DNA from: Planctomycetota bacterium
GTDB taxonomy: Bacteria; Planctomycetota; Phycisphaerae; Phycisphaerales; SM1A02
Direction of reading: 5' to 3'
Assembly: GCA_016873115.1 (NCBI GenBank)
Contig: VGYB01000002.1
Location: 1-64,000, forward strand
DNA: 64,000 nt
Part shown: piece after piece, positions 23,609 through 33,697 of the stretch
Layout: every line of letters starts with the position of its first letter
Position numbering within the stretch: position 1 is the first letter of the stretch
Notes under the pieces: model-generated
Told to the model about the DNA's origin: nothing
The model's input: the letters and a program-made list of their open reading frames with translations, nothing else
Databases searched by the model: none
Position numbers and translations under genes: made by a program

Positions 23609-24516
23609 CGCGTTGCTCCCGGGGTGCGAGAGAGGAATCCAAAGCGTGCGTCGGCTGGGCGCCGGATGAGTGACGCTGGATCGGGGATGCCGAGATCGCT
23701 GTAGGCGTCGCGCTCCACGATCTCGCGCAGCACAACGCGCTGGATGCGAGGCAGCTGCGTGGCGAGTGCGAAGGACCCGAGCCCGTACACCGCCTCGGCA
23801 GCTGCCTTGGGGCTGGCGTACGGCCAGCCCGACGCAAACAGCACGCGATTGGCCACGCCGTGCTGTACGGCGCCGAGCATGGCGTTGTAGAGCATCCATG
23901 GTTGGCTCACGATGCCGCTCGTGTCGGTCCACGCGTTCTCGAAGGCTGTCAGCATCGCGATGCACTCATCGATCCACGGCCAGCCCATGCCGGAGAACAC
24001 GACCTTCAGCCTTGGCAACTGGCGCATCGTGTCGGTCCACGCCGTTGGGCGATCGTTGCCGATGGCGGCGTTGCGGGTGTAGGGAGCAGGTCGACTGACG
24101 AAGACCGGCAGGCCGTCCGCGGCGCACCGCTCGAAGAGCCGCATCACGGGGGCATCGGTGGGCAGGAAGCCCTGCATCGCAGGACTCACGCAGATCCCGA
24201 ACAGCCCAAGGTCGGTGCACCGCCGGAACTCATCCCAAGCATCGTCGCTGGTCGGGTCGATGCCGGCAATCCCGACATAGCGGCCGTTGCCCTGGCGAAC
24301 CGCATCGATCACTGCATCGTTGGGAATGTTCGCCCCCAGGCGATCAGCACGAAAGCCGTGGATGATGGCGCCCGCGAGTGGTTCCGTCGCGCGCTCCAGC
24401 GCGGCGGGCGAGGCATCCAAGGGCAGGGAACCCGGCAGATCCCGCAGGGAGGCCGACAGTTCGATGCCGAGCTTGTCCAGGCTGGGCCAAGTGCGCGTGT
24501 GCGCGTCGATGATCAT
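23605..24516 (-). CDS. amidohydrolase-2 family-like protein
   Basis: A 303-residue protein whose order of strands fits an amidohydrolase TIM barrel. It starts IIDAHTRTWPS, includes GIAGIDP and VVFSGMGWPWIDE, and ends with LFASGWPYASPKAAAEAV, matching the usual late FGTDxP region. The metal-binding HxH is replaced by HTR and the late Asp by Gly-Trp, so a classical metal site seems incomplete. Catalytic activity is doubtful. Coupled by 4-base overlaps to dxs upstream and the lipoprotein downstream. Confidence 0.65.
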   Translation of the reverse strand: MIIDAHTRTWPSLDKLGIELSASLRDLPGSLPLDASPAALERATEPLAGAIIHGFRADRLGANIPNDAVIDAVRQGNGRYVGIAGIDPTSDDAWDEFRRCTDLGLFGICVSPAMQGFLPTDAPVMRLFERCAADGLPVFVSRPAPYTRNAAIGNDRPTAWTDTMRQLPRLKVVFSGMGWPWIDECIAMLTAFENAWTDTSGIVSQPWMLYNAMLGAVQHGVANRVLFASGWPYASPKAAAEAVYGLGSFALATQLPRIQRVVLREIVERDAYSDLGIPDPASLIRRPADARFGFLSRTPGATR

Positions 24517-26513
24517 CGCGGGGCGATTGTACGGACGGACGCCGTGGCCTGCGCACTGCCCGCAGCGGGTTCAGCCCGGCGTGGAGCGCCGCAACCACGC
24601 GAGTCGATCAGGCTGCGGACCGTGCGGGCGATGCTGGCACTGTCGATGCCGGCATCGGCCATCTGCTCGGCGCGCTCACCGTGACCGATCCACGCGTCGG
24701 GCAGTCCCATGCGCACGATGCGGGATGAATCCAGGCCCATCTCGTTGCACGCCTCGAGCACGCACGAGCCGAAGCCGCCGCGCACCGAGTGGTCCTCGAC
24801 GGTCACGATCGGGGTACCCGCCTGGATCAGGCGGCGCAGGAGGCCTGCGTCAACCGGCTTGGCGAAGCGGGCGTCGTAGACGGCCACGCGGTACTCCGGC
24901 AGCATCGGGAGCGCATCGAGCGCATCGAAGGCCACCGTGCCGTACGCGATGATGGCCACATCCGTGCCGGTCGGCTCGACCAGCGGTCGAGCCACTCCAA
25001 GCTGGAAAGCCGGGCAGGGGTCGTTGGCCAGGCGCATGTCGACATTGGCGCGCGGGTAACGCATGGCTGATAGGCCTTGGTCGTAGCCGGCCATGAACTC
25101 GATCGCGGCCTTCATGCTGGCTTCGTCGATCGGTGCGAGGAGTACCGCCTTGGGCAGCGTGGCCAACAGCGACACATCGCAGAACCCGTGGTGGACCGGG
25201 CCATCACCGCCGACGAGCCCGGCGCGATCGAGGCACAGGCGCACGGCGAGTCCCTGCAACGCGACTTCCTGGAACGCCTGGTCGAAGGCGCGCTGCAGGA
25301 AGGTGCTGTAGACCGCGAAGAAGGGCTTCCAGCCGGTCTTCGCGAGCCCAGCCATCATGTCGAGCGCGTGGCTCTCGCAGATCCCCGTGTCCCAGGTGCG
25401 GTCGGGGAACTTGGCAAGCGGCTTCGAGATGCCCGTGCCATCCGGCATGGCGGCGGTCGCGGCGCAGACCTTCGGGTCACGCGCCATCAGGTCGACCATG
25501 GCGTCGCCGAAGGCGGCCGTGAAGGAGCGTCCGCCCTTCTTGATCTCGACGCGGCAGCCTTCGTTCTCAAGATCGCCTTCCGCGACCGTGAAGGGGCTGG
25601 GCGAGTGGAAGGTGCAGGAGTCCTGCTCCGCAAAGCGGAAGCCCTTGCCCTTGATGGTCTTCACATGCAGCACGATCGGGCGGTCGGTGTGCTTGGCTTC
25701 GTTGAGGAACTCGATGAGCGTGGGCAGATCATGGCCATCGATCGGGCCGACCGTCAGCAGGCCGAAGTGCTCGAACCATGCATCGTCGCTGAGGAAGCTC
25801 TTGCTGCTCTCGCCAAGGCGGTGATAGAGATCGCGTGCAAGGTGTCCGCCCGGGATGTTCTCCGTGAGCTGCTTCGCGGCCTTCTTGAACTCGCCGTAGG
25901 TGTGCGACAGGCGCACGCGGTCGAAGTACTGCGCGATCGCGCCCTGCGGCTTGGCGATGCTCATGCCGTTGTCGTTGAGCACGACGAGGAACTGCCTGGA
26001 GAGCGTGCCAGCGCCGTTGAGGCCTTCCATCGCCAGCCCGTTGACGATCGACGCATCGCCGACCACGGTCGCCACTCGGCGGCCGGTGGGGTTCTCGTGC
26101 GACCAGCCCTCGCCGTTGAGCGAGTCGCCGCGCGCCAGGCCCACGGCCGTGCTGATGGCGGTGCCTGCGTGCCCCACACTGAAGAGGTCGTACGGGCTCT
26201 CGACTGGTGCGGGGAAGCCCGCCATGCCGCCGCGCTGGCGCAGCTTGGGAAGCAGGTGCTGGCGGCCGGTCAGCAACTTGTGGGTGTAGCACTGGTGGCC
26301 GACATCGAACAGCAGGCGATCGTGCCCGAAGTCGAAGACATAGTGCATGGCCACGGTCAGTTCGACCACGCCGAGATTGGGCGCCAAGTGGCCGCCGCTG
26401 CGGGCGACCTGGTCGCCGATGGCGGTACGGATCTCCCCACAAAGTTCCTGCAGCTGGGCGATGCTCAGGCGTCGGAGGTCGGCAGGGGATTGGATGGTTG
26501 GGAGATGGGCCAT
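24513..26513 (-). CDS. dxs: 1-deoxy-D-xylulose-5-phosphate synthase
   Basis: A 666-residue thiamine-diphosphate enzyme, the first step of the MEP isoprenoid pathway. Motifs: GGHLAPNLGVVELT, FDVGHQCYTHKLLTGR, the ThDP-binding segment GDASIVNGLAMEGLN ending LNDN, and DRAGLVGGDGPVHHG in the pyrimidine domain. The start ATG at 26513 has TAGACT 20 bases upstream. Usual length is about 620-640; here the C-terminus is extended by an Ala/Pro/Arg-rich tail. GGPP synthase lies immediately upstream on the same strand. Confidence 0.93.
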   Translation of the reverse strand: MAHLPTIQSPADLRRLSIAQLQELCGEIRTAIGDQVARSGGHLAPNLGVVELTVAMHYVFDFGHDRLLFDVGHQCYTHKLLTGRQHLLPKLRQRGGMAGFPAPVESPYDLFSVGHAGTAISTAVGLARGDSLNGEGWSHENPTGRRVATVVGDASIVNGLAMEGLNGAGTLSRQFLVVLNDNGMSIAKPQGAIAQYFDRVRLSHTYGEFKKAAKQLTENIPGGHLARDLYHRLGESSKSFLSDDAWFEHFGLLTVGPIDGHDLPTLIEFLNEAKHTDRPIVLHVKTIKGKGFRFAEQDSCTFHSPSPFTVAEGDLENEGCRVEIKKGGRSFTAAFGDAMVDLMARDPKVCAATAAMPDGTGISKPLAKFPDRTWDTGICESHALDMMAGLAKTGWKPFFAVYSTFLQRAFDQAFQEVALQGLAVRLCLDRAGLVGGDGPVHHGFCDVSLLATLPKAVLLAPIDEASMKAAIEFMAGYDQGLSAMRYPRANVDMRLANDPCPAFQLGVARPLVEPTGTDVAIIAYGTVAFDALDALPMLPEYRVAVYDARFAKPVDAGLLRRLIQAGTPIVTVEDHSVRGGFGSCVLEACNEMGLDSSRIVRMGLPDAWIGHGERAEQMADAGIDSASIARTVRSLIDSRGCGAPRRAEPAAGSAQATASVRTIAPR

Positions 26514-26595
26514 GGGGGACTTGGGAACAATGAAGTCTAGTGGCCTTCGCCGCGCGGACACCGCTGGATTGGGCCCATTGGCGCGATTCCCGCGC

Positions 26596-27474
26596 TCAGC
26601 GCGTGCGACCAGCGAGGTAGTCGGTCAGTCGCGCCAGCGGTTCGCCGGCCGGTCCGAGCGGGGCCAGGGCCGAAAGCGCCTCCGAGCGCAGGCGCTCGAT
26701 CTCGCTTCGGGTGCGATCCAGCCCATGCACGGAGGGGTAGGTGAGCTTGCCCGCGTCGCGGTCCTTCCCAACCGCCTTGCCGGCGTGCTCGGCCGACTGC
26801 GTCTCGTCGATCAGGTCATCCACCGCTTGGAACATCACGCCGTTCAGGGTCCCCCAATGCGTCAGCAACCCAAGGAGGGGTTCCGGTGCATCCGCACTCA
26901 GCGCACCCATCCGACAGGAGCAGACCATCAGCGCCCCGGTCTTGTTCGCGTGGATCCGTTCAAGCCGATCCACGGCACTCATGCCCGAAGGGAAGCCACC
27001 GAGTGTGTCGTGCACCTGTCCGGTGATCATGGCGTTGGTGGCGCGGCTGAGCTCCATCACGATCCGGAGTGCGCCGCGTGGCGAGGCCGACGCGGCCTGG
27101 AAGGCCAACGCCAGGAGCGCGTCGCCGGCCAGGATCGCCATGACCTCGCCCATCGCTCGGTGGAGGGTCGGCCGCCCGCGCCTGAGGTCATCGTTGTCGA
27201 GCGCCGGCAGGTCGTCGTGCACGAGGCTGAAGGCGTGGACCATCTCGATGGCCGCGGCGGCATCGAGGGCATGGTCGATCGAACCTCCGGCTGCGCGGGC
27301 GCAGGCCAGCACCAAGGTCGGGCGCAGGCGCTTGCCGCCGCCCAGGAGCGCATACTCGACGGCACTTCGCAGGTTCGGGGCATAGTCGGCGTGGGTCACA
27401 TGGTGGGCCAGCCGGGCCTCGATGGCGGCCAGGTCCCGGTGGTCGAACACATCCGACTGCGTGGTCGTGGTCAC
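26596..27474 (-). CDS. polyprenyl (farnesyl/geranylgeranyl) diphosphate synthase
   Basis: A 292-residue trans-prenyltransferase. The first Asp-rich motif HDDLPALDNDDLRRG (Asp87-88 onward) and the second FQAVDDLIDE bind Mg-diphosphate, and GGGKRLRP carries the basic residues for IPP. It condenses IPP with allylic diphosphates; product length cannot be fixed by eye. It starts at a GTG, six bases after TACACT on the minus strand. It lies upstream of dxs, so both isoprenoid genes can be co-expressed. Confidence 0.9.
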   Translation of the reverse strand: MTTTTQSDVFDHRDLAAIEARLAHHVTHADYAPNLRSAVEYALLGGGKRLRPTLVLACARAAGGSIDHALDAAAAIEMVHAFSLVHDDLPALDNDDLRRGRPTLHRAMGEVMAILAGDALLALAFQAASASPRGALRIVMELSRATNAMITGQVHDTLGGFPSGMSAVDRLERIHANKTGALMVCSCRMGALSADAPEPLLGLLTHWGTLNGVMFQAVDDLIDETQSAEHAGKAVGKDRDAGKLTYPSVHGLDRTRSEIERLRSEALSALAPLGPAGEPLARLTDYLAGRTR

Positions 27475-27480
27475 GCTTCG

Positions 27481-27517: not shown

Positions 27518-28180
27518 ATGGGACCTGCAGAGCACTTCCTGAAGTTCATGGACCACGGCGGCTTCGTCATGTGGCCACTGCTCGTGCTGAGCATCATCAG
27601 CGTGACCGTCACCGTGGAGCGCACGCTCTTCTGGATCAGGCTGCACGGCCGCCGCGGCATCCGTGAGTACGACGCCGTCGTCATGCGCCTGCGCAACGCC
27701 GACGAGGAGGGCGTGCGCAGCATGGACCGCGCGGGCGACAACCTCTACGCCGACGTGGCAGGCGGACTGCTCGACCAGGGGACCGACGATGCCCATGCGC
27801 TGGCGGTCGTCGAGGCGCAGCGGCCCCGGCTCGAGCGCTTCAGCATCCTCATGAGCACCATCATCACGGGCGCGCCCATGTTCGGCATCCTCGGAACCGT
27901 GCTGGGCATCATCGACAGTTTCGGCGTGCTGGGCAGCGAGGACAGCCTTGCCGATCCGCGCCTGGTGAGCAACGGCATCTCCGTCGCACTGATCGCCACC
28001 GCGAGCGGACTGGTCGTCGCGCTTGTCACGCTCTTCCCCTACATGGTGTTCAAGGCACAGTCCGATCGTGCGATGGGCCGACTCGAAGTGCTGATCGCCG
28101 CGGCCAAGACAGGCTTCCCGACGCGCCGTGCGCGGGGGGTGAAGCCGACCGAAGTTCCCTCGCAGGCCTTCAGCGCATGA
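27518..28180 (+). CDS. MotA/TolQ/ExbB proton channel family protein
   Basis: A 220-residue membrane protein with three helices (about 16-34, 112-135, 150-175). MSTIITGAPMFGILGTVLGIIDSF and ISVALIATASGLVVAL are the family's pore motifs (GLxGTVxGI and ALxxTAxGL). Such channels energise TolR/ExbD-type partners or flagella, yet no ExbD/TolR gene follows; the next genes are TraB-like and a phosphatase. ATG 27518 is chosen because ATG 27503 lies inside the -10. The stop overlaps the next ATG. Confidence 0.85.
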   Translation: MGPAEHFLKFMDHGGFVMWPLLVLSIISVTVTVERTLFWIRLHGRRGIREYDAVVMRLRNADEEGVRSMDRAGDNLYADVAGGLLDQGTDDAHALAVVEAQRPRLERFSILMSTIITGAPMFGILGTVLGIIDSFGVLGSEDSLADPRLVSNGISVALIATASGLVVALVTLFPYMVFKAQSDRAMGRLEVLIAAAKTGFPTRRARGVKPTEVPSQAFSA

Positions 28181-29505
28181 TCGGCATGCCCACCGTCAGA
28201 ACTGTCCTGGGGGCAATGGCCGTCACCTGCTCGATGGGTTGTCCCGTCCGTGGGCACGATGCGGCTGCACGCCATCCGACGGCAGCGGACCAGCCTTGGA
28301 CCGCATCCCGCGCCGAAGCGGACGGGAGGTTGGTGCTGGAGACGGCGACTCGAACCTTCACCCGAGATGGTGCCCCATCGATCACGCTCGTGGGCGTCGC
28401 GCACATCGGTACCGCTGACTACTACAAGGGATTGCAGGCGATCCTCGACGCGCACGACCTCGTGCTCTACGAGTCCGTGTATCCGACGGGGGCTGCGGCG
28501 CCGGGTGGCCATGATGCTGCTGCCCGGGTGGCCTCCACGCGGGCGAGCATGCTTTGGTTGCGTGACCTCATCGACGCCACCTGGCGCGCTGATGGCGCGG
28601 TTCCCACCATTGATCGTGTGGCGGAGTACGCAAGACAGGATGACTCCCGCTGCCCGGCGTGGATCAAGGCCGCGTCCGTCGATGCCTGGGGGCGACCGCT
28701 GACGATCATCGCGCTGGACAACGGGTTCTCGCTGGTTTCCTTGGGTGCCGACGGCCGCATCGGCGGCAGCGGCGAGGAGGCCGACCTGCGGCTCCTGCAG
28801 CGTTCGCGCCAACCCAAGCCGGATGGCGATGGCCTTCAGCGTGAGCTGGCCCGCATGCTGGCTCTTGAGTTCCAGCTCGACCGCATCGACTATGCGCAGC
28901 CGGGCTGGGTCGTGAGCGACATGACCTTCGGCCAGCTTGAAGAGGCCTTCAAGCGGCGCGGCGTGACCGGCGGCATGGTGCAGGGAAGCCTGCGCGGCGG
29001 CGGCCTCAGCGCTGATGCCATCGGTGCCGTCGTGGCGATCCTGAAGTTCATGGACGCGGCCTCGGGCGGCAGTGCGAGCGAAGCCGTGAAGGTGCTCATG
29101 GTGCAGGTCCTCGGCAGTTCCGTGGCGACCGACGGAGCCATGCTCGGCGAGGAGGGCAAGGTCATCCTCGATGATCGCAACGCGGTGGTCTGGGCGGATC
29201 TGGAGCAACGCCTTGGCAAGGCACCTCCGCAGCGCATCGCCATCTTCTACGGCGCGGCGCACATGGCGGACTTCGCTCGTCGACTCCATGGCATGGGCTA
29301 CACCACCGGCGAAGCAACCTGGTCGATCACGCTCTCCGCCGATCCCCGTCGGGCCGGGGTCGATGAGGCCACGATGCGGGGATTGCGGAGTGCGATGGAG
29401 CAGGCGGGCCGCCGATCGGCCAAGTCGCCGAGGTCGGCGGGGGAACGGCAGGGTGCCCCATCGGATGCGCCAGCGGTGGATCCGGCTCCCGCTCTTGTCC
29501 CATGA
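28177..29505 (+). CDS. TraB/GumN (Tiki-like) family protein, exported
   Basis: A 442-residue protein. The two GxxH motifs of the TraB/PrgY/GumN family are present, GVAHIGTADYY near residue 75 and FYGAAHMADF near 360, together with the conserved Glu in VLYESVYP. These residues correspond to the metal site proposed for Tiki-type proteases. An N-terminal hydrophobic stretch ending SMGC could be a lipoprotein or secretion signal. It is coupled by 4-base overlaps to the MotA/TolQ gene before it and the FHA/phosphatase gene after it. Confidence 0.78.
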   Translation: MIGMPTVRTVLGAMAVTCSMGCPVRGHDAAARHPTAADQPWTASRAEADGRLVLETATRTFTRDGAPSITLVGVAHIGTADYYKGLQAILDAHDLVLYESVYPTGAAAPGGHDAAARVASTRASMLWLRDLIDATWRADGAVPTIDRVAEYARQDDSRCPAWIKAASVDAWGRPLTIIALDNGFSLVSLGADGRIGGSGEEADLRLLQRSRQPKPDGDGLQRELARMLALEFQLDRIDYAQPGWVVSDMTFGQLEEAFKRRGVTGGMVQGSLRGGGLSADAIGAVVAILKFMDAASGGSASEAVKVLMVQVLGSSVATDGAMLGEEGKVILDDRNAVVWADLEQRLGKAPPQRIAIFYGAAHMADFARRLHGMGYTTGEATWSITLSADPRRAGVDEATMRGLRSAMEQAGRRSAKSPRSAGERQGAPSDAPAVDPAPALVP

Positions 29506-31109
29506 GTTCGGGAGAGCTCCAGCTTCGTGTGCTCTCGGGCCTGCCAGCAGGCACCCCACCGCTCGTGCTCGATCCGCAGGCTGGGGCCGTGCTTGGGCGC
29601 GGCGGCGATTGCTCGCTGGTCATCGATCATCCCGCGGTCAGTCGGCGCCATGCGCGCATCGAGGCGGTGGCCGGCACCTGGACGGTGCGTGACCTCAGCA
29701 GCCGTCACGGCACGAAGGTCGATGGTGCGGTGCTTGCGCCCAATGAGCCGGTGCACTTGCGACCGGGTTCGCGCATTGATCTCGGCCCCGTGGCGTTGCG
29801 CGTGGAGCGACAGGGTGCATCGTCGGCACCGTCGATCAGCTCGACCCTTCACGATGGTGCAAGCCAGGCGCGTGCACGCATCGTGCATGGCGGCGGCGCC
29901 ATGGCGGCCCGGCGGCTCGATGCGCTCATCGCGATCGTGGGCATGCTGCAGCGTGCGGGCACCGAGGATGCCGTGGTTGCGGCGGTGCTGCCTGAACTCG
30001 TCAAGGCCACCGGTTTCGCCCGGTGCGTCCTCGTCCGGGGCCTCGATGGCTCGGGCAGGGTCGATGTGCGCGCAGCCCATCCGGAGGGGTCGGCGGCGAG
30101 ACCGCTCAGTCGCACGCTCCTCAACGCTGCCGCCGGCGGCCAGACGGTCGAACTCGCTGAGCAGCCGGACCTTGCCGGTGCGGCGAGCCTGATCATGGCC
30201 GAGGTCGTTGGTGCCGTCTGCGCACCGGTGGTCATTGATGGCGTCGTGGAGTCGTTCCTCTACCTCGATGCATCGGGTGACCAGACTCCGGCATCCGATG
30301 CCGGGCCGTTCTGCCGCGCCATTGCGGAGATCGTCTCGATGTGCGTCTCGAACCTCCGGCGCGAGGCAGCCGAGGCGGAGCGTCGGGCGCTGGTGGAGGA
30401 TCTCGGTGCGGCTCGGAGCGCGCAGGAACGCCTGATGCCCGCGGTCGAGGGTGAACTCGGCGGATTCCGCTATCGGCTTGCCAGCGTGCCGGGTCGGTTC
30501 GTCGCCGGCGACATCGTTGGGATGCACGGTTCCGAAGAGCGTCTCATGGCCTATCTCGGCGATGTCAGCGGCAAGGGGGCCGGTGCGGCCATGCTCATGA
30601 GTGCGATCCAGGCGCACATGGCGGCGCAACTCTCCTGCGGTCGCGCGCTGCAGGAGTCAGTGAACGGGTTGGGGGAGTTCGTCAGCCTCCATGCCGGCGC
30701 CGGACGATTCGCCACCATGTTCTTCGCGTCCTTCGATGCGATCTCCGGCAGTGTGACCGTGATCGATGCTGGACATGGTTACGCGGTGTTCGTCGATCCG
30801 GTCCACGGTCCGCGGGCGGTGACCTGTGAGGGTGGGCCTCCGATCGGTGCCGTGGCAGGTTGGTCCTACGACCGCAGCGATGTGGCGTGGCCCATCGGTG
30901 CTCGGCTCGTCGTCTTCTCAGACGGCGTGGCCGAGCAACTCGATGGCGATGGACAGCAACTCGGCCTCGACCGGATCGTCGAGGTCCTCTCGCGCAGCGA
31001 GACGGTCGAAGGTGATGTGTCGGGAATCCTGACCACGCTCGAAGCCCACGCAGGCGGCACCCAGTACGCCGATGACGTGACGGTGATCAGCATCGAGCGC
31101 ATGCGCTGA
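29502..31109 (+). CDS. FHA-GAF-PP2C (SpoIIE/RsbU-type) serine phosphatase
   Basis: A 535-residue signalling protein. About 25-95 is a forkhead-associated domain (LGRGGDC, SRRHARIE, SSRHGTKVDG) that binds phosphothreonine peptides; about 135-290 is a GAF-like domain; about 310-535 is a SpoIIE-type PP2C domain with VAGDIVGMHG, LGDVSGKGAGAAMLM, FSDGVAEQ and YADDVTVI holding the metal Asp residues. It should dephosphorylate a protein such as an anti-sigma antagonist. Nothing suggests a membrane anchor. Last gene of the coupled MotA/TraB operon. Confidence 0.9.
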   Translation: MSSGELQLRVLSGLPAGTPPLVLDPQAGAVLGRGGDCSLVIDHPAVSRRHARIEAVAGTWTVRDLSSRHGTKVDGAVLAPNEPVHLRPGSRIDLGPVALRVERQGASSAPSISSTLHDGASQARARIVHGGGAMAARRLDALIAIVGMLQRAGTEDAVVAAVLPELVKATGFARCVLVRGLDGSGRVDVRAAHPEGSAARPLSRTLLNAAAGGQTVELAEQPDLAGAASLIMAEVVGAVCAPVVIDGVVESFLYLDASGDQTPASDAGPFCRAIAEIVSMCVSNLRREAAEAERRALVEDLGAARSAQERLMPAVEGELGGFRYRLASVPGRFVAGDIVGMHGSEERLMAYLGDVSGKGAGAAMLMSAIQAHMAAQLSCGRALQESVNGLGEFVSLHAGAGRFATMFFASFDAISGSVTVIDAGHGYAVFVDPVHGPRAVTCEGGPPIGAVAGWSYDRSDVAWPIGARLVVFSDGVAEQLDGDGQQLGLDRIVEVLSRSETVEGDVSGILTTLEAHAGGTQYADDVTVISIERMR

Positions 31110-31183: not shown

Positions 31184-32224
31184 TCAATCGCCGTGCGCCC
31201 AGTTGGGGGTTGTCGCCCCGTTGACCCAGCGGCGCATGTCCATCAGTTCGCGCAGGGTGACGAGTCCGGTGCTGCCGTCGGCGTTGGAGATCGTCGCGTT
31301 GGCGCCGAAGCGCAGCAGGGGTGCCGCCTCCTGAACGAAGATCTCGAGTCCGCCCGCCTGCATCGGCGCGGGAGCTGGTGCTGCTGCAAGCATCGCCGAA
31401 AGCGCGTCCTGCTCGCCGAACATGGACAGGTCGATGCCTTGCAGATTCCCTCCACCGATGCGCCAGATCTCCGTGGTGCCCAGGTGCGGCGGCACCGACC
31501 ACGCAGCGCCGGGGTAACTGTCGTGGTCTTCGATGTAGATCCCCGCAGGTCGAAGTGCCGAGCTTGAGAAGACGATCATCTCGCTGCTGCGGGCGATCTG
31601 CCCGATCGATCGAGCGACGATCTTGCCGCGAACATTGACTCCGTTCTCTTGATAGATCGAATCCCGGAAGCGATAGGCCGGGATCCCGATGGTCGAGGGG
31701 AGCGTCCACCATCCACCGAGGTAGTAGGCGTTGTAACCAAAGCCCGGTTGCAGGGCGAGCCCAGCACCATTCGCTCCAGTGATCGTCGCGAACTCCGCCG
31801 GCAGCGCGGGCTCGTACTCCATGTCGTTGTAATAGAGCGACTCATCAAGGTTGGTCTCGGCCGTGTCGCGATAGCCCAGGAACGGGTCGTACTCGTAGCC
31901 GAGAAAGGCCGCCAGCCGCCAGCCGTAGGTCTGGGCGAGCTCCGGGGAGAGCTGGTTGCCGTTCTGGTTCTGGTACTTGACCTTCCACGCGGTCTGCACC
32001 TCAGGGCTCAGGTACCCGGGCAGGCACTGATCGCCGTTGTTGTTGCCGTACTGCTGCCACGCCATGATGAGCTGGCGGGCCCGCGACTGGTCCTTCGACG
32101 CCTTGGCGGTCTCGATGGCCTTCTGGATGCCCACCGTGAGCAGGCTGATCAGGATGCCGATGATCGAGATGACGACGAGGATCTCGACGATCGTGAAGGC
32201 GGGACCGGTGGTGCGTCGCTTCAT
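31184..32224 (-). CDS. type II secretion/pseudopilin-like protein
   Basis: A 346-residue protein with a prepilin N-terminus: basic MKRRTTGPA, then FTIVEILVVISIIGIL with the conserved Glu5 after the cleavage site, and a following amphipathic helix. The residue before the cleavage site is Ala rather than the usual Gly. The large globular C-terminus, rich in Tyr, Gly and Asn, resembles planctomycete pseudopilins. No other secretion gene is adjacent. TAGGCT lies six bases before the ATG (32231-32236). Confidence 0.8.
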   Translation of the reverse strand: MKRRTTGPAFTIVEILVVISIIGILISLLTVGIQKAIETAKASKDQSRARQLIMAWQQYGNNNGDQCLPGYLSPEVQTAWKVKYQNQNGNQLSPELAQTYGWRLAAFLGYEYDPFLGYRDTAETNLDESLYYNDMEYEPALPAEFATITGANGAGLALQPGFGYNAYYLGGWWTLPSTIGIPAYRFRDSIYQENGVNVRGKIVARSIGQIARSSEMIVFSSSALRPAGIYIEDHDSYPGAAWSVPPHLGTTEIWRIGGGNLQGIDLSMFGEQDALSAMLAAAPAPAPMQAGGLEIFVQEAAPLLRFGANATISNADGSTGLVTLRELMDMRRWVNGATTPNWAHGD

Positions 32225-32394: not shown

Positions 32395-33651
32395 TCAGCC
32401 CGTCCGACCCACCGAGACCTGCGCGACCTGTCCCGCAGCGATCTTGGCGGCACCGCTGCCGAGTTCGCCGATCGGATCCGGCGGCTTGATCTCGACGAGC
32501 TTCTCGCCCAGGCGCGCCTCGCCCGCCTTGACCTTGGCTTCGAACGCCTTGCACTCCTGCAGCAGGCGAGGAAGGATCTCCTCCTCGGTCACATTGGCGA
32601 CCTTCTGGCCCTGCACATAGATGATCCCTCGCCGGTCACCGGCGAACACCGCCACATCCGCACCCTCGGCCTCGCCCGGGCCGTTCACGATGCAGCCCAT
32701 GACAGCGACCTTCACGGGCAGCTCGAGCTCGGGCATCAGCACCTTCTCCACTTCCTTCACCAGCGTGAAGAGATCGACCTGGATGCGGCCGCAGGTCGGG
32801 CACGCGATCAGTTCGACGCCCTTGCGCTCACGCATCCCGAGGCAGCAGAGCATCTCGATGGCGTCCTTGACTTCGTCGATGTGATCGCTCGCGTACGAGA
32901 TGCGCACCGTGTCGCCGATGCCGTTGGCCAGAAGCGTGCTGAGCGCAGCAATCGAGCGGATGCAACCGGAATCGCGTGTGCCGGCGTGCGTCACGCCCAG
33001 GTGCAGCGGGTAGTCGAAGCGCTTGGAGATCTCGGTGTAGATGTCGATCACGAGCGCGGCATCCATGCTCTTGGCGCTGATGCACACATCATGGAAGTCG
33101 CGCTCGGCGAAGATGTCGAGGTACTCCTCGAGCTTGGCGATCATGAGCGCCAGCAGGTGGCCGGACTTGTGGCCGGCGAAGAACTTGCCGAGTTCCTCGG
33201 CGCGACGAGCCTTGTCGCGGCGTTCGATGATCGAGCCCTCGTTGACGCCGATCCGGATCGGGATGCCTCGCTCCTTGCAGGCATCGATCACCTTGTTGAC
33301 CTGGTCGCGGTCGCTGATGTTGCCGGGGTTGAGGCGGATCTTGTGGACCCCGGCCTCGACGGCCTCGAGTGCGCGCTGGTAGTGGAAATGCACATCCGCC
33401 ACGACCGGCACGCTCACCTGGCGCATGATCTCCTTGAGCGCCTCGGTGTCCTTGCGCTCGGGCACCGCCACCCGCACGATGTCGGCGCCCGCCTTGGCAT
33501 ACCGGTTGATCTCGGCGACGCAGGCGTCGATGTCGTGCGTATAGCCCGCATTCATGGTCTGCACGATGACGGGGGCACCGCCGCCGATGCGGAGGCGCCC
33601 GACGCGGTCGTCACCGACGATGACCTGACGGGTGAGCTTGCGCGGTGTCAT
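32395..33651 (-). CDS. ispG: 4-hydroxy-3-methylbut-2-enyl diphosphate synthase
   Basis: A 418-residue MEP-pathway enzyme that reduces the cyclic diphosphate MEcPP. QTMNAGYTHD and VADVHFHYQRAL mark the TIM barrel; ACPTCGRIQVDL and MGCIVNGPGEAEGAD supply the three cysteines and the Glu that bind the 4Fe-4S cluster. About 30 residues extend past the usual end. The start ATG at 33651 follows TACACT by nine bases. This completes a local set with dxs and GGPP synthase, though not in one operon. Confidence 0.94.
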   Translation of the reverse strand: MTPRKLTRQVIVGDDRVGRLRIGGGAPVIVQTMNAGYTHDIDACVAEINRYAKAGADIVRVAVPERKDTEALKEIMRQVSVPVVADVHFHYQRALEAVEAGVHKIRLNPGNISDRDQVNKVIDACKERGIPIRIGVNEGSIIERRDKARRAEELGKFFAGHKSGHLLALMIAKLEEYLDIFAERDFHDVCISAKSMDAALVIDIYTEISKRFDYPLHLGVTHAGTRDSGCIRSIAALSTLLANGIGDTVRISYASDHIDEVKDAIEMLCCLGMRERKGVELIACPTCGRIQVDLFTLVKEVEKVLMPELELPVKVAVMGCIVNGPGEAEGADVAVFAGDRRGIIYVQGQKVANVTEEEILPRLLQECKAFEAKVKAGEARLGEKLVEIKPPDPIGELGSGAAKIAAGQVAQVSVGRTG

Positions 33652-33697
33652 GGGCCGGAGAGTGTAGCCCCACACGGCGGCCCGGTTCCATAACCGC

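Follow-up and report, generated by a model that had tools for sequence, protein, structure and literature searches.

We analysed a 64,000-nucleotide stretch of a Planctomycetota genome (contig VGYB01000002.1, hereafter the window) and focused on a three-gene locus that encodes an ExbB/TolQ-type channel subunit (gene 1), an exported TraB-fold protein (gene 2) and a PP2C phosphatase (gene 3). We lean slightly towards reading the locus, as a whole, as the ExbB half of a split Ton/Tol-like motor with a periplasmic TraB-GspG partner and a recruited phosphatase. Working from what was directly observed (genes, domains, conserved residues, synteny and phyletic covariation), we infer a mechanism in which a proton-driven envelope motor of the Ton/Tol kind would be encoded at two loci, gene 1 providing its ExbB/TolQ subunit. 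The ExbD/TolR subunit and a TonB/TolA-like force transducer would be supplied from a gyrA-STAS-exbD-tonB operon on contig C10 of the same genome, and ExbB would assemble with both. Gene 2, the coupled partner of ExbB, probably functions together with the motor at the envelope. The phosphatase would have joined the ExbB operon in one subclade, and its likeliest substrate class would be phospho-STAS proteins, for example the one encoded beside exbD.

The genome under study (G000) is a draft of 2.36 Mb and 95.9% completeness. Comparisons were based on 80 named loci fetched with a gene 2 profile, mostly labelled Phycisphaerae, Phycisphaerales or Planctomycetota; counts of residues and overlaps refer to the subsets of relatives given with them. 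The features of the locus are listed below.

27518..28180, +: gene 1, MotA/TolQ/ExbB-type channel subunit, 220 amino acids, three hydrophobic segments (Pfam PF01618)
28177..28180, +: gene 1 stop and gene 2 start, overlapping as ATGA (sequence; exact four-base overlap in 40/62 relatives)
28177..29505, +: gene 2, exported TraB/GumN (TIKI-fold) protein, 442 amino acids, with an inserted pseudopilin domain (profile, Pfam, AlphaFold2 model)
28393..28404, +: first GxxH motif of gene 2, GVAH, residues 73-76 (H76 invariant in 61 homologues)
28510..28797, +: GspG globular domain of gene 2, residues 112-207 (PDB profile search, VIA-align, Pfam T2SSG)
29251..29262, +: second GxxH motif of gene 2, GAAH, residues 359-362 (G359 and H362 invariant in 61 homologues)
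29502..29505, +: gene 2 stop and gene 3 start, overlapping as ATGA (sequence; kept in the genus)
29502..31109, +: gene 3, FHA - (GAF-like) - SpoIIE/RsbU-type PP2C phosphatase, 535 amino acids (Pfam, VIA-align)
29589..29786, +: FHA domain of gene 3 (Pfam; G32, R33, S47, R48 and H50 invariant in nine homologues)
30534..31100, +: SpoIIE-type PP2C domain of gene 3 (Pfam; Asp 337, 354, 474 and 525 invariant in nine homologues)

A conserved and coupled ExbB-TraB gene pair

An original prediction, made from the sequence of the window alone, had described three plus-strand genes joined by ATGA overlaps, the first of them a MotA/TolQ/ExbB channel. Both overlaps are present, and gene 1 matches the MotA_ExbB family (PF01618) with an E-value of 9.6e-24. 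T127 and T161, the conserved threonines of two pore helices, are invariant across 23 relatives; we take them to be the equivalents of Thr148 and Thr181 of Escherichia coli ExbB.

Across 61 related genomes, the gene 1 family was widespread, and most of the family also carried gene 2. In 62 of the 80 named loci, ExbB immediately precedes gene 2 on the same strand, and the two genes overlap by exactly four bases in 40 of these 62. In one genome of 99% completeness (G026, locus L095, 7178-9178), ExbB and the TraB-GspG protein form a single open frame, in which an internal hydrophobic segment precedes the TraB part. Genes 1 and 2 are thus a conserved, translationally coupled pair in many Phycisphaerae. 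The original prediction would have been refuted if the genes stayed together in no relative, which is not the case: genes 1 and 2 do so across two Phycisphaerae families, and the complete set does so in the genus of the window and three further genera. A conserved three-gene unit was ruled out, since the phosphatase is part of the operon in only 8 of the 80 named loci.

Gene order could also persist simply because rearrangement is slow, in which case the three genes would be unrelated neighbours. The order dxs-ispA / exbB-traB / prepilin-like gene / ispG is indeed conserved as an entire neighbourhood in family f1, and each of genes 1, 2 and 3 is absent from some relatives. Nevertheless, a second family that lacks dxs and ispA retains the pair, often with its overlap (L070, L073, L076, L106 and L107, and the matching L163, L180 and L190), suggesting that the pairing is more than an inherited position. 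The fusion of genes 1 and 2 in one genome, and the linkage of the phosphatase to ExbB that survives loss of the middle gene, likewise argue against this explanation, which we regard as unlikely.

A probable ExbD partner and a transducer-like protein encoded at a second locus

The channel had been described as lacking any ExbD/TolR partner. Locally this is correct, as no ExbD gene adjoins gene 1, but it does not hold genome-wide, where an ExbB-less exbD operon co-varies with the window ExbB. A search of the genome found three ExbD genes, one of them on contig C10 and the other two in tandem beside another ExbB on contig C4 (L086, 31171-32404).

The C10 operon is compact and contains, in order, gyrA, a STAS gene (PF13466, 6.2e-8), ExbD (PF02472, 2e-13) and a TonB/TolA-like gene. 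The protein encoded after ExbD displays an N-terminal membrane helix with an SxxxH motif, followed by a proline-rich linker; by eye its C-terminus resembles that of TonB, with no Pfam match obtained. Thirty loci with a C10-type ExbD were compared, that of the studied genome included. The membrane-helix aspartate of ExbD is present in all 30, gyrA lies beside ExbD in 29, and the SxxxH helix occurs in the following gene in 25. SxxxH is the form taken by the motor-binding signature of TonB and TolA. The histidine of this signature is conserved in these transducers (PMC12204202). The STAS gene of this operon is located as follows.

L267 6406-7291, contig C10 of G000: STAS gene between gyrA and exbD, kept across the family in 28/30 loci

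It is unusual for gyrase to be linked with a STAS regulator and an envelope motor, and a literature search for STAS proteins together with ExbD and SpoIIE returned nothing relevant.

None of the 30 C10-type ExbD loci has an ExbB within 1.5 kb, compared with all five control ExbD loci. Among the 54 genomes that are at least 85% complete, 49 encode the window-type ExbB together with the C10-type ExbD, no genome encodes ExbB only, two encode ExbD only (G029 and G036) and three encode neither (G011, G033 and G054). This co-occurrence yields a Fisher p of 4e-4 in a test that ignores phylogeny, with orthologs called by E-value and context, so that a few assignments could shift. Evolutionary distances of ExbB and ExbD, controlled for those of DXS and IspA, displayed a modest correlation (partial r 0.33), whose p-value from shuffled labels is no strict test and on which we do not rely. 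Judged by these patterns, the ExbD/TolR partner of the window ExbB is probably the C10 ExbD, distant in the chromosome, and one motor spread over two operons is the simplest reading of how the two genes are distributed.

This system shares with the Ton (ExbB-ExbD-TonB) and Tol (TolQ-TolR-TolA) motors an ExbB/TolQ protein, an ExbD/TolR protein with a membrane-helix aspartate, and a transducer-like protein with an SxxxH membrane helix and a proline-rich linker. Unlike them, its genes lie at two loci, with ExbB coupled to a TraB-fold protein and ExbD to gyrA and a STAS gene. In addition, the TonB-dependent receptor plug domain (PF07715) was not found in the 95.9%-complete genome, which makes classical TonB import improbable; a role like that of Tol, or another one in the envelope, is more plausible.

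Several observations weigh against the reading as a whole, with its TraB-GspG partner and phosphatase included. Gene 2 persists without ExbB in G011, G033, G036 and other Phycisphaerae families, and ExbB persists without gene 2 at six loci (L058, L103, L056, L059, L090 and L100); since each is found without the other, neither strictly requires its partner. The covariation of ExbB with ExbD hangs on just three genomes that lack both genes, two of which belong to one family, and on orthologs that we assigned ourselves. Furthermore, the C4 ExbB, with its two ExbD proteins, could serve the C10 transducer. Finally, the STAS protein is present without a full-length PP2C homologue in several genomes, such as G024 and G027.

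A phosphatase confined to one subclade

The third gene had been proposed to encode an FHA-GAF-PP2C phosphatase. Its outer domains were readily recovered (FHA, 2.6e-18; SpoIIE-type PP2C, 1.6e-35), while the putative GAF region between them gave weak Pfam matches in two of nine homologues, with a best E-value of 0.017. A structural model, for which eight sequences were usable, displayed a GAF-like order of elements at low confidence (predicted local distance difference test, pLDDT, 63). No GAF chain occurred among its fold matches, a list filled by matches to the PP2C domain. The fold of that domain is nearest to RsbU, SpoIIE and RssB-type phosphatases; superposition on the RsbU-RsbW structure of Rv1364c with VIA-align gave a Z score of 25.5 and 2.4 Å over 219 residues. 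All four metal-binding aspartates are invariant in the nine homologues, as are the phosphopeptide-binding arginine and serine residues and the structural histidine of the FHA domain (R33, S47, R48 and H50), together with G32. Gene 3 therefore shares with the RsbU/SpoIIE/RssB-type enzymes a PP2C domain with a full set of metal ligands and a regulatory N-terminal region, and differs from them by its N-terminal FHA domain and its place in an exbB operon.

The eight loci in which the phosphatase follows exbB-traB comprise seven close relatives, with 75-82% identity in gene 2, and a more distant one (L121). All three genes occur together in the genus of the window and in G009, G014 and G023, and the phosphatase accompanies ExbB without gene 2 in G010, G013, G021 and G032. 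Genomes that carry it fall in one region of the DXS-IspA tree, with modest support. This distribution is consistent with a single recruitment that would have been followed by losses of either gene. The phosphatase is a later, looser companion of ExbB, confined to one subclade.

Phosphatases of the SpoIIE/RsbU class commonly target phospho-STAS proteins. In the STAS protein encoded next to the C10 ExbD, the expected motif retains a serine, presumably at the position where SpoIIAA is phosphorylated, and the genome has one strong RsbW-type kinase gene, so that a link from the phosphatase to this STAS protein is attractive. No strict covariation of the two was found among the genomes compared, where they do not vary together in any clear way, and for this reason we grade the link low.

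These proteins could form a signalling route, in which the FHA-GAF-PP2C protein reads the state of the motor and dephosphorylates the STAS protein beside exbD, controlling the partner switch of a sigma factor. Such a route would extend the split motor and does not exclude it. The RsbU/SpoIIE class of the phosphatase, the STAS serine (its position being taken from general knowledge) and the RsbW-type kinase speak for it; the restriction of the exbB-phosphatase linkage to one subclade, and the genomes with STAS and no full-length phosphatase, speak against it, and we consider it doubtful. A link from the envelope motor to the phosphatase is possible, and the STAS gene adjoining exbD lends it a more specific form. 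In its fullest form, the two motor operons would divide a partner-switching pair between them, the SpoIIE-type phosphatase going with ExbB and its STAS substrate with ExbD, and envelope force, or the calcium or substrate state of TraB-GspG, would lead to STAS dephosphorylation. We advance this elaboration only as a quite improbable one.

A pseudopilin domain inserted in a TraB fold

Gene 2 had been described as an exported TraB/TIKI-like protein with both GxxH motifs, and this description agrees with the homologues. H76, E99, R334 and H362, the TraB/TIKI signature, are invariant across 61 aligned sequences, and the two histidines are those of the GVAH and GAAH motifs. Alone, gene 2 matches the Pfam family TraB_PrgY_gumN with an E-value of 0.0026, under the curated cut-off; 53 of the 61 homologues match it at 0.01 or better (best 1.8e-10). 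Gene 2 encodes a periplasmic TraB-fold protein, which is probably a hydrolase.

The same protein also matches T2SSG, the family of type II secretion pseudopilin G (7.4e-4), as do 55 of the 61 family members. When the gene 2 family profile was searched against the PDB with hmmsearch, it retrieved EpsG and other GspG pseudopilins (3.5e-9), with the whole globular domain aligned. In the AlphaFold2 model (pLDDT 85; predicted template-modelling score, pTM, 0.82), residues 112-207 superpose on EpsG (3fu1) with a Z score of 9.6 and 2.5 Å over 90 residues. The remainder of the model gave a Z score of 8.7 with a chain of Tetrahymena complex IV, over at most 182 residues and at about 5 Å. Gene 2 holds a complete GspG globular domain inside its TraB fold, inserted 13 residues past the conserved glutamate, which had been overlooked in the original prediction.

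In a comparison of 342 genomes, many relatives from the phylum matched the gene 2 profile on either side of positions ~106-215 and not within them. Among 40 such loci inspected, 28 proteins have the two halves joined almost directly and 12 bear the pseudopilin domain, which is thus a discretely inserted unit. ExbB adjoins three of the 12 inserted copies and none of the 28 uninserted ones; all three come from the family of the window, so this only shows that coupling to ExbB exists within the inserted lineage. Inserted TraB proteins were also detected beyond the class of the window (L206, L213-L219 and L242-L246, in families f36, f42 and f56), which implies that the insertion predates the class or was transferred beyond it.

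The inserted domain keeps the calcium-loop consensus SLGADGxxGGxGxxAD, and a pseudopilin loop of similar kind holds Ca2+ in structure 3G20 (PMC3396595). The GspG-type domain of gene 2 is probably calcium-binding, as predicted from this consensus. Gene 2 shares the two GxxH motifs, the conserved glutamate and arginine, and export with the TIKI/TraB/PrgY/GumN family, and differs from it by the full GspG globular domain between the conserved glutamate and the rest of the fold. With GspG, EpsG and PulG it shares that whole globular domain and its calcium loop; unlike theirs, the domain is internal and devoid of an N-terminal prepilin helix. Placed within another protein, it could not undergo the usual polymerisation. 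Literature searches for TraB with a pseudopilin, or for TraB/GumN proteins in Planctomycetes, returned nothing relevant.

In a last alternative, the channel formed by gene 1 would need no ExbD and would have the TraB protein as its sole partner, a periplasmic arm in place of ExbD. Despite the tight coupling of the two genes, their one fusion and the lack of an adjacent ExbD, we find this account quite unlikely, because the N-terminus of gene 2 resembles a signal peptide, ExbB persists in genomes that lack gene 2, and a matching orphan ExbD exists that co-varies with ExbB. A conserved acidic residue was sought in the N-terminal hydrophobic stretch of gene 2 and none was present, unlike in ExbD, and a role as ExbD substitute with a membrane aspartate was thereby ruled out.

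Neighbouring genes

The genes around the locus are the following.

24513..27480, -: dxs and ispA, divergent neighbours, background synteny outside the unit
31184..32224, -: prepilin-like gene, convergent neighbour with N-terminal FTIVEILVVISIIGILISLL, context only
32395-33675: ispG, flanking isoprenoid gene

On one side of the operon dxs and ispA, and on the other ispG, are isoprenoid genes that retain their position across most of the family. The prepilin-like gene matched no Pfam family at an E-value of 0.01. A similar gene, likewise in convergent orientation, follows gene 2 in 58 of the 75 relatives with room for it; in six of these 58 it lies about 1.7 kb away, past the phosphatase gene.

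Significance

Among the papers covered by our search, we found no published description of a split ExbB motor combined with a TraB-pseudopilin protein. The locus combines known kinds of components, namely Ton/Tol motors and TraB/TIKI proteins, in a new arrangement. In this genome, in which a TonB receptor domain was not detected, an apparently partner-less ExbB is likely to belong to a split Ton/Tol-like motor, and a TraB/TIKI family with an inserted pseudopilin domain is identified as the coupled partner of an ExbB motor gene. These findings provide candidate pairs for the Planctomycetota, which are the window ExbB and the C10 ExbD, ExbB and TraB-GspG, and the PP2C phosphatase and the STAS protein.

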